Shown here: positions 18,411 to 23,164 of the stretch, piece after piece
How the letters are laid out: every line of letters begins with the position of its first letter
Position numbering within the stretch: position 1 is the stretch's first letter
Translations under genes and position numbers: made by a program
The notes under the pieces: generated by a model
Seen by the model: only the letters and a program-made list of their open reading frames with translations
The model's database searches: none
What the model was told of the DNA's origin: nothing
Assembly (NCBI RefSeq): GCF_017468685.1
Contig: NZ_JAFUHT010000011.1
Location: 1-64,000 of the forward strand
Length of the DNA: 64,000 bases
Reading direction: 5' to 3'
Source: Methanobrevibacter sp.
GTDB taxonomy: Archaea > Methanobacteriota > Methanobacteria > Methanobacteriales > Methanobacteriaceae

Positions 18411-19250
18411 ATGAAGATTTTAATTACAGGTTCTAATGGAATGTTGGGCCATGATTTAATAAAAGTTTTGGAAGAAAATAATGAATTGATTCTTACAACT
18501 TCTAAAACATTTGATATTACAGATAAAAAGCAAACAATGGATTATATTTGTGATACCAAACCGGACATAGTTATTAATTCGGCGGCTTACACTGATGTTG
18601 ACGGTTGTGAGCAAAATCAGGACCTTGCATATGCGGTTAATGGAGATGGTGTTCGTAATTTGGCACTAGCTTGCAGAGAAATTGATTGTCCATTGGTTCA
18701 TATCAGCACTGATTATGTATTTGATGGCAGTGCACGTGATCCTATTGCAGAGGATGGTGAAATAGGTCCTATAAGCGTTTATGGTAAAAGCAAGCTTAAA
18801 GGTGAAGAAGCTATCTTGGAAATACTTGATAAATATTTCATTGTCAGGACAGCTTGGCTATATGGAATTAATGGCCGTAATTTTCCTAAAACAATGCTTG
18901 AATTAGCTCAAAACCACTCTGAAATAACTGTTGTTTATGATGAAGTTGGTACTCCTACATATACTCCCGATTTAGCTTATGGAATTTCTCAATTGATTGA
19001 AACAGATTATTATGGAACTTACCATCTGACTAATTCCGGAAGTTGCTCATGGTGTGAATTTGCAAGATATATTTTTGAGATTGCTGATAAGGATGTAAAG
19101 GTTATTCCAGTAACTGCATCTGAATTTGCAAGACCTGCACCAAGACCAAGCTATTCAGTTTTAAATAATAAACAATGGGTTGAAAATGGTTTTAAACCTC
19201 TTAGAAATTATAAAGAAGCGATAAAAGAATATATTGAGTTGATTAAATGA
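18411..19250 (+). CDS. rfbD: dTDP-4-dehydrorhamnose reductase
   Basis: RfbD/RmlD reduces dTDP-4-dehydro-L-rhamnose to dTDP-L-rhamnose, the last step of the pathway. The 279-residue short-chain dehydrogenase has GSNGMLGHDL (NAD(P) site), NSAAYTDVDGCE, HISTDYVFDG, the catalytic YGKSKLKGE pair and RTAWLYG. It opens an operon that also carries rfbA, rfbC and rfbB. Its TGA overlaps the ATG of the following ribonuclease gene (ATGA), which couples their translation. Confidence 0.95.
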   Translation: MKILITGSNGMLGHDLIKVLEENNELILTTSKTFDITDKKQTMDYICDTKPDIVINSAAYTDVDGCEQNQDLAYAVNGDGVRNLALACREIDCPLVHISTDYVFDGSARDPIAEDGEIGPISVYGKSKLKGEEAILEILDKYFIVRTAWLYGINGRNFPKTMLELAQNHSEITVVYDEVGTPTYTPDLAYGISQLIETDYYGTYHLTNSGSCSWCEFARYIFEIADKDVKVIPVTASEFARPAPRPSYSVLNNKQWVENGFKPLRNYKEAIKEYIELIK

Positions 19251-19696
19251 ATAAAAAATTTATTTTAGTCATTGCATTAATCATTGCTTTATTTGGTATT
19301 TCTGCAGTTAGTGCAGGTTTTTTTGACTTTTTAAAGTTTGATGATGGTGCAAGTGACATAAATGTAGTGGAAGACGGAGAATATTGTACAGTTGATGAAG
19401 TTTCAGCTTATATTAAGGAATTTCACAAACTTCCAAGTAATTATATCACAAAAAAACAAGCCAATGCATTAGGCTGGCATGGAGGCCCACTTAAAAAATA
19501 TGCACCGGGAAAAAGTATTGGTGGGGATACATTTACAAACAGGCAGCATATACTTCCTGACAGTGATGATAAATACATTGAATGTGATATTAATGCAAAT
19601 GGAACCAGTCGTGGTGCAGAAAGAATAGTCTACAATACCGGTGATTATAAAGTGTACTATACTGACGATCATTACGCTACATTCACAGAGGTTTAA
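19247..19696 (+). CDS. Secreted barnase-type ribonuclease
   Basis: A 149-residue protein that aligns by eye over its whole mature length with barnase. Residues 1-23 are a signal peptide (MNKKF, hydrophobic core, AVSA cleavage site). The mature part has FHKLPSNYITKKQANALGW, APGKSIGGDTFTNR and a C-terminal half with all four key barnase positions: Glu112 (general base, barnase Glu73), Arg122 and Arg126 (Arg83, Arg87) and His142 (general acid, His102) in DDHYATF; Lys61 matches Lys27. The enzyme should cut single-stranded RNA, preferably after G. It is coupled to rfbD (ATGA overlap) and followed one base later by its inhibitor gene. Export suggests action outside the cell or in the wall, as for bacterial guanyl-specific RNases; the biological target is unknown. 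Two Cys (47, 113) are extra relative to barnase. Confidence 0.93.
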   Translation: MNKKFILVIALIIALFGISAVSAGFFDFLKFDDGASDINVVEDGEYCTVDEVSAYIKEFHKLPSNYITKKQANALGWHGGPLKKYAPGKSIGGDTFTNRQHILPDSDDKYIECDINANGTSRGAERIVYNTGDYKVYYTDDHYATFTEV

Positions 19697-19697
19697 A

Positions 19698-19925
19698 ATG
19701 ATTTTAGATGGTAAATTAATTAACCAGCAGGGGCATGATTATTTGATGGAGGCTTTAAATTTGCCGGATTATTACGGTAAAAATCTTGATGCATTATATG
19801 ATTGTCTTTGTGAGATGGAATGTGAAATCGAATTGACTAATTCTTGTGAAATCGATAAGGATATTCTTGACACATTTCAAGATGCTGCTGATGAAAACAA
19901 ATTTTTAAAATTTAAAATAATATAA
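19698..19925 (+). CDS. Barstar-type ribonuclease inhibitor
   Basis: A 75-residue cytoplasmic protein of the barstar family. The signature [16 protein letters not shown] closely matches the barnase-binding helix of barstar: Tyr25, Asp31 and Asp35 correspond to Tyr29, Asp35 and Asp39, Tyr34 replaces Trp38, and Asp62 replaces Glu76. I choose the ATG at 19698 rather than the longer frame from 19641, because GAGG lies 7 bp upstream, the start follows the ribonuclease stop by one base and the product then begins exactly like barstar (MILDGKLI). It should protect the producer from enzyme that folds before export. It is about 15 residues shorter than B. amyloliquefaciens barstar, mainly in the middle. 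Confidence 0.92.
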
Positions 19926-19942
19926 AAAACAAAGTGATTATT

Positions 19943-20809
19943 ATGAAAGGTATAGTTCTAGCAGGCGGTTCAGGAACTCGTTTATATCCTATTACTAAGG
20001 CTGTTTCAAAACAGTTATTGCCACTATATGACAAACCGATGATTTATTATCCAATTTCTGTTCTTATGCTTGCAGGAATCAAAGAAATATTAATTATATC
20101 CACTCCTCGCGATTTACCAATGTATAAAGATTTGTTGGGAGACGGATCCAGTTTGGGAATCAAATTTGAATATGCCGTTCAGGAAAATCCTAACGGCCTT
20201 GCAGAAGCATTCATCATTGGTGAAGACTTCATTGGAAATGATAATGTTGCACTTATTTTGGGAGACAACATTTTTCACGGACACAGATTCACAGAAATTC
20301 TTGAAAGGGCAATCAATCTTGATGAAGGAGCAGTAATATTTGGATATTATACTAATAATCCTGAAGCGTTTGGTGTTGTTGAATTTGATGATGATTGGAA
20401 TGTTTTATCAATAGAAGAAAAACCAGAAAAGCCAAAATCAAATTATATTGTTCCAGGTCTTTATTTCTATGATAATGATGTAATAGAAATTGCTAAAAAT
20501 GTTAAACCGTCCGACAGAGGGGAAGTTGAAATCACTTCTGTAAATGAGGAATACTTAAAACGCGGAAAACTTAAAGTTGAACTTCTCGGAAGGGGTATGG
20601 CCTGGCTTGATACCGGAACTCATGAAGGACTACTTGAAGCGGCCAATTTCATAGAAACAGTTCAAAAAAGACAAAGTTTATACATCGCTTGTCTGGAAGA
20701 AATTGCTTATCTTAAAGGATACATTGATGATAATCAGTTATTAAAAACTGCTGAAGAACTTAAAAAAACCGATTATGGTCAATATTTATTTAATTTAGTT
20801 AAAAGGTGA
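19943..20809 (+). CDS. rfbA: Glucose-1-phosphate thymidylyltransferase
   Basis: RfbA/RmlA joins glucose-1-phosphate and dTTP into dTDP-glucose, the entry step of dTDP-rhamnose synthesis. The 288-residue protein starts [18 protein letters not shown] (nucleotide site) and shows [31 protein letters not shown] and [13 protein letters not shown]. Start at 19943 is supported by GTGAT upstream; an in-frame GTG at 19934 is part of that site. Length is standard. Confidence 0.95.
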
Positions 20810-20813
20810 TTTT

Positions 20814-21371
20814 GTGGGAAAGTTTAATTTTATTGACACCGGAATTGAGGGTATGTTTGTTGTTGAACCTACTGTTTTTGAGGATAACAGAGGATATTTT
20901 ATGGAAACATACCAGGAAAACGATTTTAAAGAAGCGGGTTATGATTTAACTTTTGTTCAGGATAATCAATCAAAATCAAGTAAAGGTGTATTAAGGGGTC
21001 TGCATTTACAATTAAATTATCCTCAAGGTAAATTGGTCCGTGTCATTAAAGGGGAAGTATTCGATGTTGGAGTTGACCTTAGAAGCGATTCACCAACTTA
21101 CGGTAAATGGTATGGTGAAATATTGTCTGAAGACAATAAGAAACAATTGTATATTCCTCCAAAATTTGCACATGGATTTTTAGTACTTTCTGATGAAGCA
21201 GAATTTTTATATAAATGTACAGAGTTTTATCATGGCGAAGATGAGAGCGGAATCATGTGGAATGATGAGGATATTGCTATTGACTGGCCATTGGATGGCA
21301 TTGATGAAATAATATTATCCGATAAAGATAAAGAGTGGAAAACCTTAAAAGAATCAAATATTAAATATTAG
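20814..21371 (+). CDS. rfbC: dTDP-4-dehydrorhamnose 3,5-epimerase
   Basis: RfbC/RmlC epimerises C3 and C5 of dTDP-4-dehydro-6-deoxyglucose. The 185-residue cupin has FEDNRGYFMETY, QDNQSKSSKGVLRGLHLQ (catalytic His), GKLVRVIKGEVFDVGVDLR and IPPKFAHGFLVLSDEAEFLYK. The start is GTG at 20814, following GGTGAT by five bases. It lies 4 bp after rfbA. Confidence 0.95.
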   Translation: MGKFNFIDTGIEGMFVVEPTVFEDNRGYFMETYQENDFKEAGYDLTFVQDNQSKSSKGVLRGLHLQLNYPQGKLVRVIKGEVFDVGVDLRSDSPTYGKWYGEILSEDNKKQLYIPPKFAHGFLVLSDEAEFLYKCTEFYHGEDESGIMWNDEDIAIDWPLDGIDEIILSDKDKEWKTLKESNIKY

Positions 21372-21379
21372 GGATTATT

Positions 21380-22387
21380 ATGACAAATATTTTAGTTACT
21401 GGCGGAGCAGGTTTTATAGGAAGTAATTTTGTAAGATATATGGTGAATAAATACTCAGATTATCATATAATCAATTTGGATGCTCTAACTTATTGCGGAA
21501 ATCTTGAAAACTTAAAAGATATTGAAGATAAAGACAATTATACTTTTGTTAAGGGTGACATTAGGGATAAAGAAATTGTAGATGATCTGGTTAAGAAATC
21601 TGATTATGTAATTAATTTTGCTGCTGAAAGCCACGTTGATAGGAGTATAGAAGACCCTGAGATATTTATTAAATCAAACGTGTTGGGCACACAAGTTCTT
21701 TTAAATGCCTCTAAGGAATACGGTGTTGAGAAATATATCCAAATATCCACTGATGAAGTTTATGGAACATTGGGAAAAACCGGATATTTCACTGAAACTA
21801 CTCCTCTACAACCTAATAGTCCTTATTCAGCTTCTAAAGCTGGTGGAGATTTAATCACAAGGGCATACTTTGAAACATTTGATTTGCCTATAAATATTAC
21901 TCGCTGTTCAAATAATTATGGGCCGTATCAGTTTCCAGAAAAACTAATTCCTCTAATGATTTCTAATACATTGGAGGATAAGAAATTACCTGTTTATGGT
22001 GACGGTAAAAATATTCGTGACTGGCTGCATGTTCACGACCACTGTACTGCAATAGATTTGGTTTTACATGAAGGTAAGTTGGGTGAAGTCTATAACATTG
22101 GTGGAAACAATGAAAAAGAAAATATTTATATTGTAAAACTGATTCTTGAAACTTTAGGAAAAGATGAATCATTGATTGAGTTTGTGACTGATCGTTTAGG
22201 TCATGATAGGCGTTATGCTATTGATTCATCAAAGATTCAGGATGAGCTGGGCTGGAATCCGGATTATACATTTGAAGTAGGTATTAAAGAAACAATTCAA
22301 TGGTATCTTGACAATCAGGATTGGACCAACAAAATCAAAAGCGGACAATATCAGGAATATTATGAAAAAATGTATTCAAATAGGTAG
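21380..22387 (+). CDS. rfbB: dTDP-glucose 4,6-dehydratase
   Basis: RfbB/RmlB converts dTDP-glucose to dTDP-4-dehydro-6-deoxyglucose using bound NAD. The 335-residue extended SDR has ILVTGGAGFIGSNFVRYM, FAAESHVDRSI, ISTDEVYG, YSASKAGGD (catalytic Tyr/Lys) and RCSNNYGPYQFPEKLIP. AGGGATT precedes the ATG. It completes the rhamnose pathway set; a 230-bp AT-rich gap with T-runs follows. Confidence 0.95.
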   Translation: MTNILVTGGAGFIGSNFVRYMVNKYSDYHIINLDALTYCGNLENLKDIEDKDNYTFVKGDIRDKEIVDDLVKKSDYVINFAAESHVDRSIEDPEIFIKSNVLGTQVLLNASKEYGVEKYIQISTDEVYGTLGKTGYFTETTPLQPNSPYSASKAGGDLITRAYFETFDLPINITRCSNNYGPYQFPEKLIPLMISNTLEDKKLPVYGDGKNIRDWLHVHDHCTAIDLVLHEGKLGEVYNIGGNNEKENIYIVKLILETLGKDESLIEFVTDRLGHDRRYAIDSSKIQDELGWNPDYTFEVGIKETIQWYLDNQDWTNKIKSGQYQEYYEKMYSNR

Positions 22388-22617
22388 TGATTTACACTTG
22401 AAATTTACCTCTTAATTTTATAATATTCATTTTTTATTATTTTTTTTATAAAATGTTCAAATAATTTCTTTTAACAATCAATTTATATTTATATTTTTTA
22501 ATTCGAAATTCCATGATTTTTTCTATTTTTAAGATAATTTTATATATTATTATTCTTTAATATTAATTGATAATGTAAATTAAAAATTTATTTATTTTTT
22601 GGGAAATGGTGATTTGG

Positions 22618-22884
22618 ATGTTGGAGCAATATTTGCCTTTTGTAGGATTAATTATTTTTGGTAATATCGAAAATTTAGTATTATCTTCTCAAGGTGTTGT
22701 GGCTGGTGTTAATTCGGTTAAATTAGGTGTTGCAAGTTTCATATGTGTGGCTGCATGGTTAGCCATTGGAACATTTGGTACACAACTATTAATTAATTAT
22801 GTTGATTTTATTGATTTCATTGGTGGTTTAGCTATCCTTATTTTAGGAGCTCAGGCAATGATTACTTCAATTAGGGGTGAATAA
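22618..22884 (+). CDS. Small membrane protein, first of a tandem paralogous pair
   Basis: An 88-residue, very hydrophobic protein with three likely membrane helices. It shares FGNIENLVL, AIGTFGT and FIGGLAILILGAQA with the next gene. The start is taken at 22618 because GGTGAT sits four bases upstream; an in-frame ATG at 22606 would add four residues. Acidic and Asn residues inside the first helix (GNIEN) suggest ion or substrate contact. I do not recognise the family; a half-size transporter or lipid-carrier flippase working as a heterodimer with its neighbour is a reasonable guess in a glycan cluster. A promoter with TATA-like TTTTATATATTA (22539-22550) lies upstream. Confidence 0.75.
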   Translation: MLEQYLPFVGLIIFGNIENLVLSSQGVVAGVNSVKLGVASFICVAAWLAIGTFGTQLLINYVDFIDFIGGLAILILGAQAMITSIRGE

Positions 22885-22885
22885 G

Positions 22886-23164
22886 ATGGATCCGGAAATT
22901 AGGCATTTTTTACCACTATTGGTTTTCGGTAACATTGAAAACTTGATTTTAGCGGCACAAGGTGTTGCAGCACATGTTGACCCTGTTGGATTAGCTATTT
23001 TAAGTTTTATAGCTGTACTTTGCTGGCTTTTAATTGGAACATTCGGTACAAAAGTGGCAATGAAATATGCTAGAGCAATTAATTTCATCGGCGGTTTAGC
23101 AATATTCATTTTAGGTATTCAGGCTATTGTTGAAGCTATTCCTGGAATGTTAGCATTTTTCTAG
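22886..23164 (+). CDS. Small membrane protein, second of a tandem paralogous pair
   Basis: A 92-residue paralogue of the preceding gene, with the same three-helix layout and the shared FGNIENLIL, LIGTFGT and FIGGLAIFILGIQA motifs. The start at 22886 lies one base after the previous stop, with AGGGGTGA a few bases upstream; the frame is also open from a GTG at 22877. The pair most likely arose by duplication and works as a two-subunit complex. Seven bases separate it from the TagF-like gene, so it probably belongs to the same transcript. Confidence 0.75.
   Translation: MDPEIRHFLPLLVFGNIENLILAAQGVAAHVDPVGLAILSFIAVLCWLLIGTFGTKVAMKYARAINFIGGLAIFILGIQAIVEAIPGMLAFF

Follow-up and report, generated by a model that had tools for sequence, protein, structure and literature searches.

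An exported barnase-type ribonuclease and its barstar in Methanobrevibacter: an old gene pair of probable gut-bacterial origin, settled in the rfb operon

Barnase is an RNase that cuts on the 3′ side of G, and barstar inhibits it by obstructing its active site. The pair of Bacillus amyloliquefaciens shares with the archaeal locus described below, as far as can be predicted for the latter, the fold, the catalytic and interface residues, and the division into an exported enzyme and a cytosolic inhibitor. The archaeal genes differ from those of B. amyloliquefaciens in lying next to each other, and in an rfb operon. In Bacillus licheniformis, the secreted N1/T1 RNase balifase and the barstar orthologue YrdF occupy one operon, as here, which in that Bacillus host is under phosphate-starvation control (PMC5021464). 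Pairs of the same simple kind were noted by Zhang et al. (2012; PMC3482391), whose passage on them includes ‘a few other methanoarchaea’ and names no species for these. Methanosphaera stadtmanae has a putative secreted RNase (barnase), the sister-genus homologue of the enzyme studied here, which a survey lists in one line as a transfer candidate, with barstar unmentioned in the text (PMC3445992). Barnase-barstar pairs in methanogens have been known since 2012; what is added here is their distribution, locus, anchoring and origin, and the history of the locus.

The window analysed here (a 64,000-nucleotide stretch of DNA from Methanobrevibacter sp., to which all unprefixed coordinates refer) carries such a pair among the genes for dTDP-rhamnose synthesis, arranged as follows:

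18411-19250, plus strand: rfbD/rmlD, dTDP-4-dehydrorhamnose reductase, upstream neighbour (TIGR01214, 331 bits)
19247-19696, plus strand: guanyl-type ribonuclease of the barnase family, 149 aa, carrying an export signal at its N-terminus (PF00545, PDB barnase match, predicted fold)
19247-19315, plus strand: signal peptide MNKKFILVIALIIALFGISAVSA, inferred cleavage between VSA and GFF (hydrophobic N-terminus in 89/89 archaeal homologues)
19388-19693, plus strand: barnase domain with K69, E112, R122, R126 and H142 (barnase K27, E73, R83, R87 and H102)
19698-19925, plus strand: barstar, predicted cytosolic inhibitor, 75 aa, without signal peptide (PF01337 and predicted fold)
19943-20809, plus strand: rfbA/rmlA, glucose-1-phosphate thymidylyltransferase, downstream neighbour (TIGR01207, 493 bits)
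20814-21371, plus strand: rfbC/rmlC, dTDP-4-dehydrorhamnose 3,5-epimerase (TIGR01221)
21380-22387, plus strand: rfbB/rmlB, dTDP-glucose 4,6-dehydratase (TIGR01181)

rfbD and barnase share 4 nt, the stop of the one overlapping the ATG of the other (ATGA), and barnase and barstar are exactly 1 nt apart (TAA at 19694-19696, ATG at 19698). The initial annotation had read this stretch as a signal-bearing barnase with Glu112, Arg122, Arg126 and His142, followed one base later by a barstar-like inhibitor with Tyr/Asp/Asp contacts, the two lying between rfbD and rfbA; coordinates and TIGR matches bear out the placement, and the family, structure and alignment evidence below bears out both identities.

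The 149-aa ORF matches PF00545 in a profile search (64.9 bits, where the cut-off is 24 bits; E=1e-17; profile positions 4-97 of 98) and, with phmmer, solved barnases in the PDB at about 1e-25. Its AlphaFold model has a mean pLDDT of 89, with values above 90 across the domain, and is matched by Foldseek with barnase/binase at prob 1.00 and an rmsd of 1.1-1.5 Å. In an eight-sequence alignment, Glu112, Arg122, Arg126 and His142 fall on E73, R83, R87 and H102 and are invariant, and Lys69 takes the place of K27; among the archaeal homologues, K27 is kept in 89/89, E73, R83 and R87 each in 88/88, and H102 in 87/88. The guanine-contact positions are more nuanced: N58 is retained in 88/89 archaeal copies and R59 in 86/89, S57 is mostly Thr, and Glu60 has become Gln in 80/88, so the base preference may differ. 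Over the enzyme domain the identity to B. amyloliquefaciens barnase is ~48%. The Ala74 of that enzyme is Cys in 88/88 archaeal copies (Cys113 of the window RNase, 19583-19585), a residue that adjoins the catalytic Glu and is invariant in archaeal and gut-bacterial members alike; a second Cys (YCTVDEV) is present in part of the archaeal RNases only.

The 75-aa ORF matches PF01337 (profile search, E=1.2e-12, 48 bits), and its model (pLDDT 95) has the barstar chain 1b3s_D as sole significant structure match (TM 0.78, prob 1.00); structure prediction of the single proteins recovered both folds. Of the residues through which barstar contacts barnase, Y29, D35 and D39 are present and W38 is replaced by Tyr; in archaeal barstars as a whole, Y29 is found in 85/86, D35 in 86/86 and D39 in 87/87, and W38 is conservatively Tyr or Phe, which sets them apart from the B. 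amyloliquefaciens protein. NCBIfam contained no matching model for either the window RNase or the window barstar. In close pairs barnase has a median dN/dS of 0.125 and barstar one of 0.44, rough estimates from sequence pairs that are non-independent; judged by these values and by the nearly invariant residues, both genes are maintained as working proteins.

Judged by hydropathy and a simple pattern rather than a trained predictor, 89/89 archaeal and 39/41 gut-bacterial RNases begin with a strongly hydrophobic segment, as against a single, borderline case among 87 barstars. An export signal on the enzyme and none on the inhibitor suggests that barstar protects the cytosol. The type of signal varies by clade: it looks cleavable in the host genus, takes the form of an N-terminal helix in Methanosphaera, and includes a lipobox (VSGC) in 14/16 RNases of the M. 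ruminantium clade. A lipobox also occurs in 18/41 bacterial relatives, compared with 10/61 other hydrophobic-start ORFs of the same loci. The signal motif V(S/T)AGF(F/L)DF is confined to the barnase gene within the source genome; in the M. ruminantium clade a similar motif, SVSAGLFDFL, begins a different protein.

How widely is the pair distributed? Carriers have one PF00545 gene each and amount to 56/67 genomes of the host genus, 89/151 of the order and 89/152 of the phylum; they span five genera, all of one family, and within the host genus, Methanosphaera and the M. ruminantium clade most species are carriers. Records with names in public collections belong to Methanobrevibacter and Methanosphaera. 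Barstar is present in 87/139 genomes of the family, behind the RNase gene in all 87, and directly follows it in 87 of the 89 archaeal cases. Barnase stands without barstar in the remaining two: in G048 the contig ends at this point, and G077 is a genome without barstar whose exported barnase keeps its catalytic residues (L114, after 3546); downstream of it lies an AT-rich tandem repeat that contains a run of N. Decay is also seen on the enzyme side: an internal deletion in G036 (L120/L200) takes out E73 and R83 and causes a frameshift, and the RNase of G104 is frameshifted near its end, barstar being intact in the former and kept in the latter. At the rfbD-rfbA junction of G031 (L210, 2337-2504), a decayed barnase start is fused to a barstar end (scores of 75 and 60.5 against maxima of 56.5 and 50.5 in 200 shuffles); by its sequence, this remnant is that of a pair lost as a unit, by internal deletion. 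The corresponding junction of G038 held no trace of the pair beyond shuffles. We take one pair-less genome of the set to be M. smithii PS, and the carriers to include M. ruminantium M1, M. stadtmanae and M. millerae SM9. Since several species, presumably M. smithii PS among them, do without the pair, its role is not essential.

The search of other genomes that the initial annotation had called for found the same pair at the same rfbD-rfbA junction, with graded divergence, in 55 genomes of the host genus. There, rfbD lies immediately upstream of barnase in 55 of the 56 carriers, with the ATGA overlap in 42 of these 55; the exception, G026, falls outside the rfb clade in both the RNase tree and the joint tree. 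In M. millerae, two ABC-exporter genes separate barstar from rfbA. In sister genera the pair has no rfb genes beside it; the M. ruminantium clade, for example, has it between a glycosyltransferase gene and thrS (the latter named by eye from its sequence). The proposed tie to surface-sugar genes thus holds as a conserved link in the host genus and is absent from the sister genera, a distribution that argues for shared location or regulation and against a shared pathway. In four genomes branching early on the rfbD tree, rfbD and rfbA are ~10 to 130 bases apart with the pair absent, so its insertion into rfb, at moderate node support, looks derived. At the pair's usual place after rfbD, on the opposite strand, G007 (presumably M. 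smithii PS) has an adhesin-like ORF with Ig repeats (Big_1, Big_3_5; L211:2364-3653, minus strand).

Barnase and barstar had been introduced in the initial annotation as proteins of bacilli and relatives; that framing does not hold for this pair, whose nearest relatives outside the archaea come from Clostridia, Kiritimatiellae and other rumen and gut anaerobes (Anaerovorax, Lachnospiraceae, Oscillospiraceae, Kiritimatiellae and Treponema). These rumen and gut relatives, Clostridia and Kiritimatiellae included, mostly have the tandem pair, with barstar close by in 37/41. The nearest gut-bacterial pair, that of Anaerovorax odorimutans L168 (51% and 49% identity), is likewise an exported RNase and barstar in tandem, its bacterial RNase being lipid-anchored through a lipobox, whereas the window enzyme has a plain signal peptide. 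In the RNase tree, the archaea lie on one side of a branch with support 81/95, and Bacillus barnase sits on a long branch distant from them, which speaks against bacilli as donors. The joint tree of RNase and barstar contains one archaeal clade (95/93), nested among gut-bacterial pairs, in which genera largely fall into clades of their own, and the phylogeny asked for at the outset, Bacillus barnase included, does place the archaeal pairs far from Bacillus and among those of gut bacteria. Distances of the two proteins correlate (r=0.87 over 110 pairs) and, along with the single archaeal clade, fit a pair that was acquired once, long ago, as a unit. These sequence data point to one ancient acquisition from a gut-bacterial lineage, probably by an ancestor of Methanosphaera and Methanobrevibacter sensu lato, then to a move into the rfb operon within the host genus, and to some losses; transfer between archaeal genera may have occurred as well. 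The suggested transfer from gut bacteria is in this way upheld as to its source, and not as a recent or peculiar event, the gene being old and single-copy. Phage carriage is disfavoured by the lack of a match in the phage collection and of a confirmed relative in viral contigs, and plasmid carriage found only four distant matches in the plasmid collection.

We consider it likely that the locus is a simple barnase-barstar pair, made up of a toxin-type RNase and the protein that gives immunity to it, with an exported enzyme, a cytosolic inhibitor and a single gut-bacterial acquisition behind both. At the level of sequence, this reading draws on both predicted folds, the active-site and interface residues, the export signal restricted to the enzyme, the linkage of the pair and the phylogeny. 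A single message would probably span rfbD, barnase, barstar and rfbA, with translation coupled at the ATGA. The signal peptide would then export the RNase, which would cut RNA on the cell surface or beyond it, probably on the 3′ side of G residues. Barstar would stay in the cytosol and plug the active site of RNase not yet exported, or of RNase entering from kin, thereby leaving the cell unharmed by its own enzyme.

What might such an enzyme be for? The absence of a delivery or repeat domain, the single copy, the lack of toxin swapping and the membrane anchoring in sister genera make us lean towards RNA turnover, or scavenging of nutrients such as phosphate and nucleosides, at the surface, to which we would assign about half of our belief. 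Phosphate starvation induces balifase, the relative from Bacillus whose operon is laid out in the same way (PMC5021464), and this is counted on the same side. Toxin-immunity gene order and the gut habitat leave room for antagonism, in which a released or contact-borne RNase would enter rival archaea or bacteria, or non-kin, and barstar would confer immunity on kin; its molecular part is the one just proposed, only the role differs, and it remains a serious, if not the favoured, possibility. Toxin precedes immunity gene, the order known from polymorphic toxin systems, in the archaea as in 37/41 gut-bacterial relatives, polymorphic toxins make use of barnase domains (PMC3482391), and a second, degenerate barstar in tandem in M. 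stadtmanae is reminiscent of immunity arrays. Against this, delivery, repeat and receptor domains are all absent from the RNase, lipid- or helix-anchored enzymes of the sister genera would not diffuse, and there is no polymorphism across 89 genomes: polymorphic toxins combine a delivery or trafficking domain with an exchangeable tip, and the 149 aa found here comprise an export signal and a barnase domain, the same in all 89. A role of some other kind is unlikely, and wall turnover, also suggested in the initial annotation, found nothing in its support.

Three further readings deny the pair a function at the surface, its independence from rhamnose synthesis or its very residence in the genome. 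Two adjacent genes for a toxin and its inhibitor, lost as a unit, would suit an intracellular toxin-antitoxin or abortive-infection pair whose hydrophobic N-terminus is incidental, but an export segment that changes in type and yet is present in nearly every archaeal and bacterial RNase is hard to call incidental, the toxin gene comes first, and the collections of phages and viral contigs yielded no confirmed relative; we hold this improbable. Less likely still is a functional part in the dTDP-rhamnose or surface-polysaccharide pathway, for which the ATGA coupling to rfbD and the stable location across the genus can be cited; the sister genera keep the pair elsewhere, early-branching members of the host genus have rfbD adjoining rfbA without it, and nothing in the chemistry of barnase connects it with the pathway. 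Assembly contamination, or a recent transfer confined to the source genome, has nothing in its favour and can practically be dismissed, since 55 genomes have this pair at this junction and diverge from one another by degrees; the signs of contamination that were to be looked for are excluded by that junction. 

Gut methanogens other than lineages such as M. smithii might, quite tentatively, be pictured as holding at their surface an RNase, with immunity to it, by which they inhibit non-kin or feed on the RNA of dying neighbours, an interference or feeding trait from gut bacteria kept by most species of the host genus. Antagonism by archaea is poorly documented (PMC12352652). The pair is old and single-copy, its active site is conserved, most species in the major genera of gut methanogens have it, and the species lacking it are natural controls; a direct test is therefore possible of whether extracellular RNA is turned over or weaponised by methanogens. 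The locus is also a case of a bacterial gene pair that settled into an archaeal operon, with an export signal that changes between clades.

Two minor observations concern small neighbouring ORFs. In G127, which we take to be M. stadtmanae, the second barstar-like ORF lies in tandem behind the first (L083:3496-3735, minus strand; 28% identity, E=3e-9) and has Glu at the D39 position. Downstream of rfbB in the window, two overlapping ORFs without an NCBIfam match (22606-22884 and 22877-23164) encode mutually similar small membrane proteins with a GNIENL..QGV motif and form a tandem duplicate.
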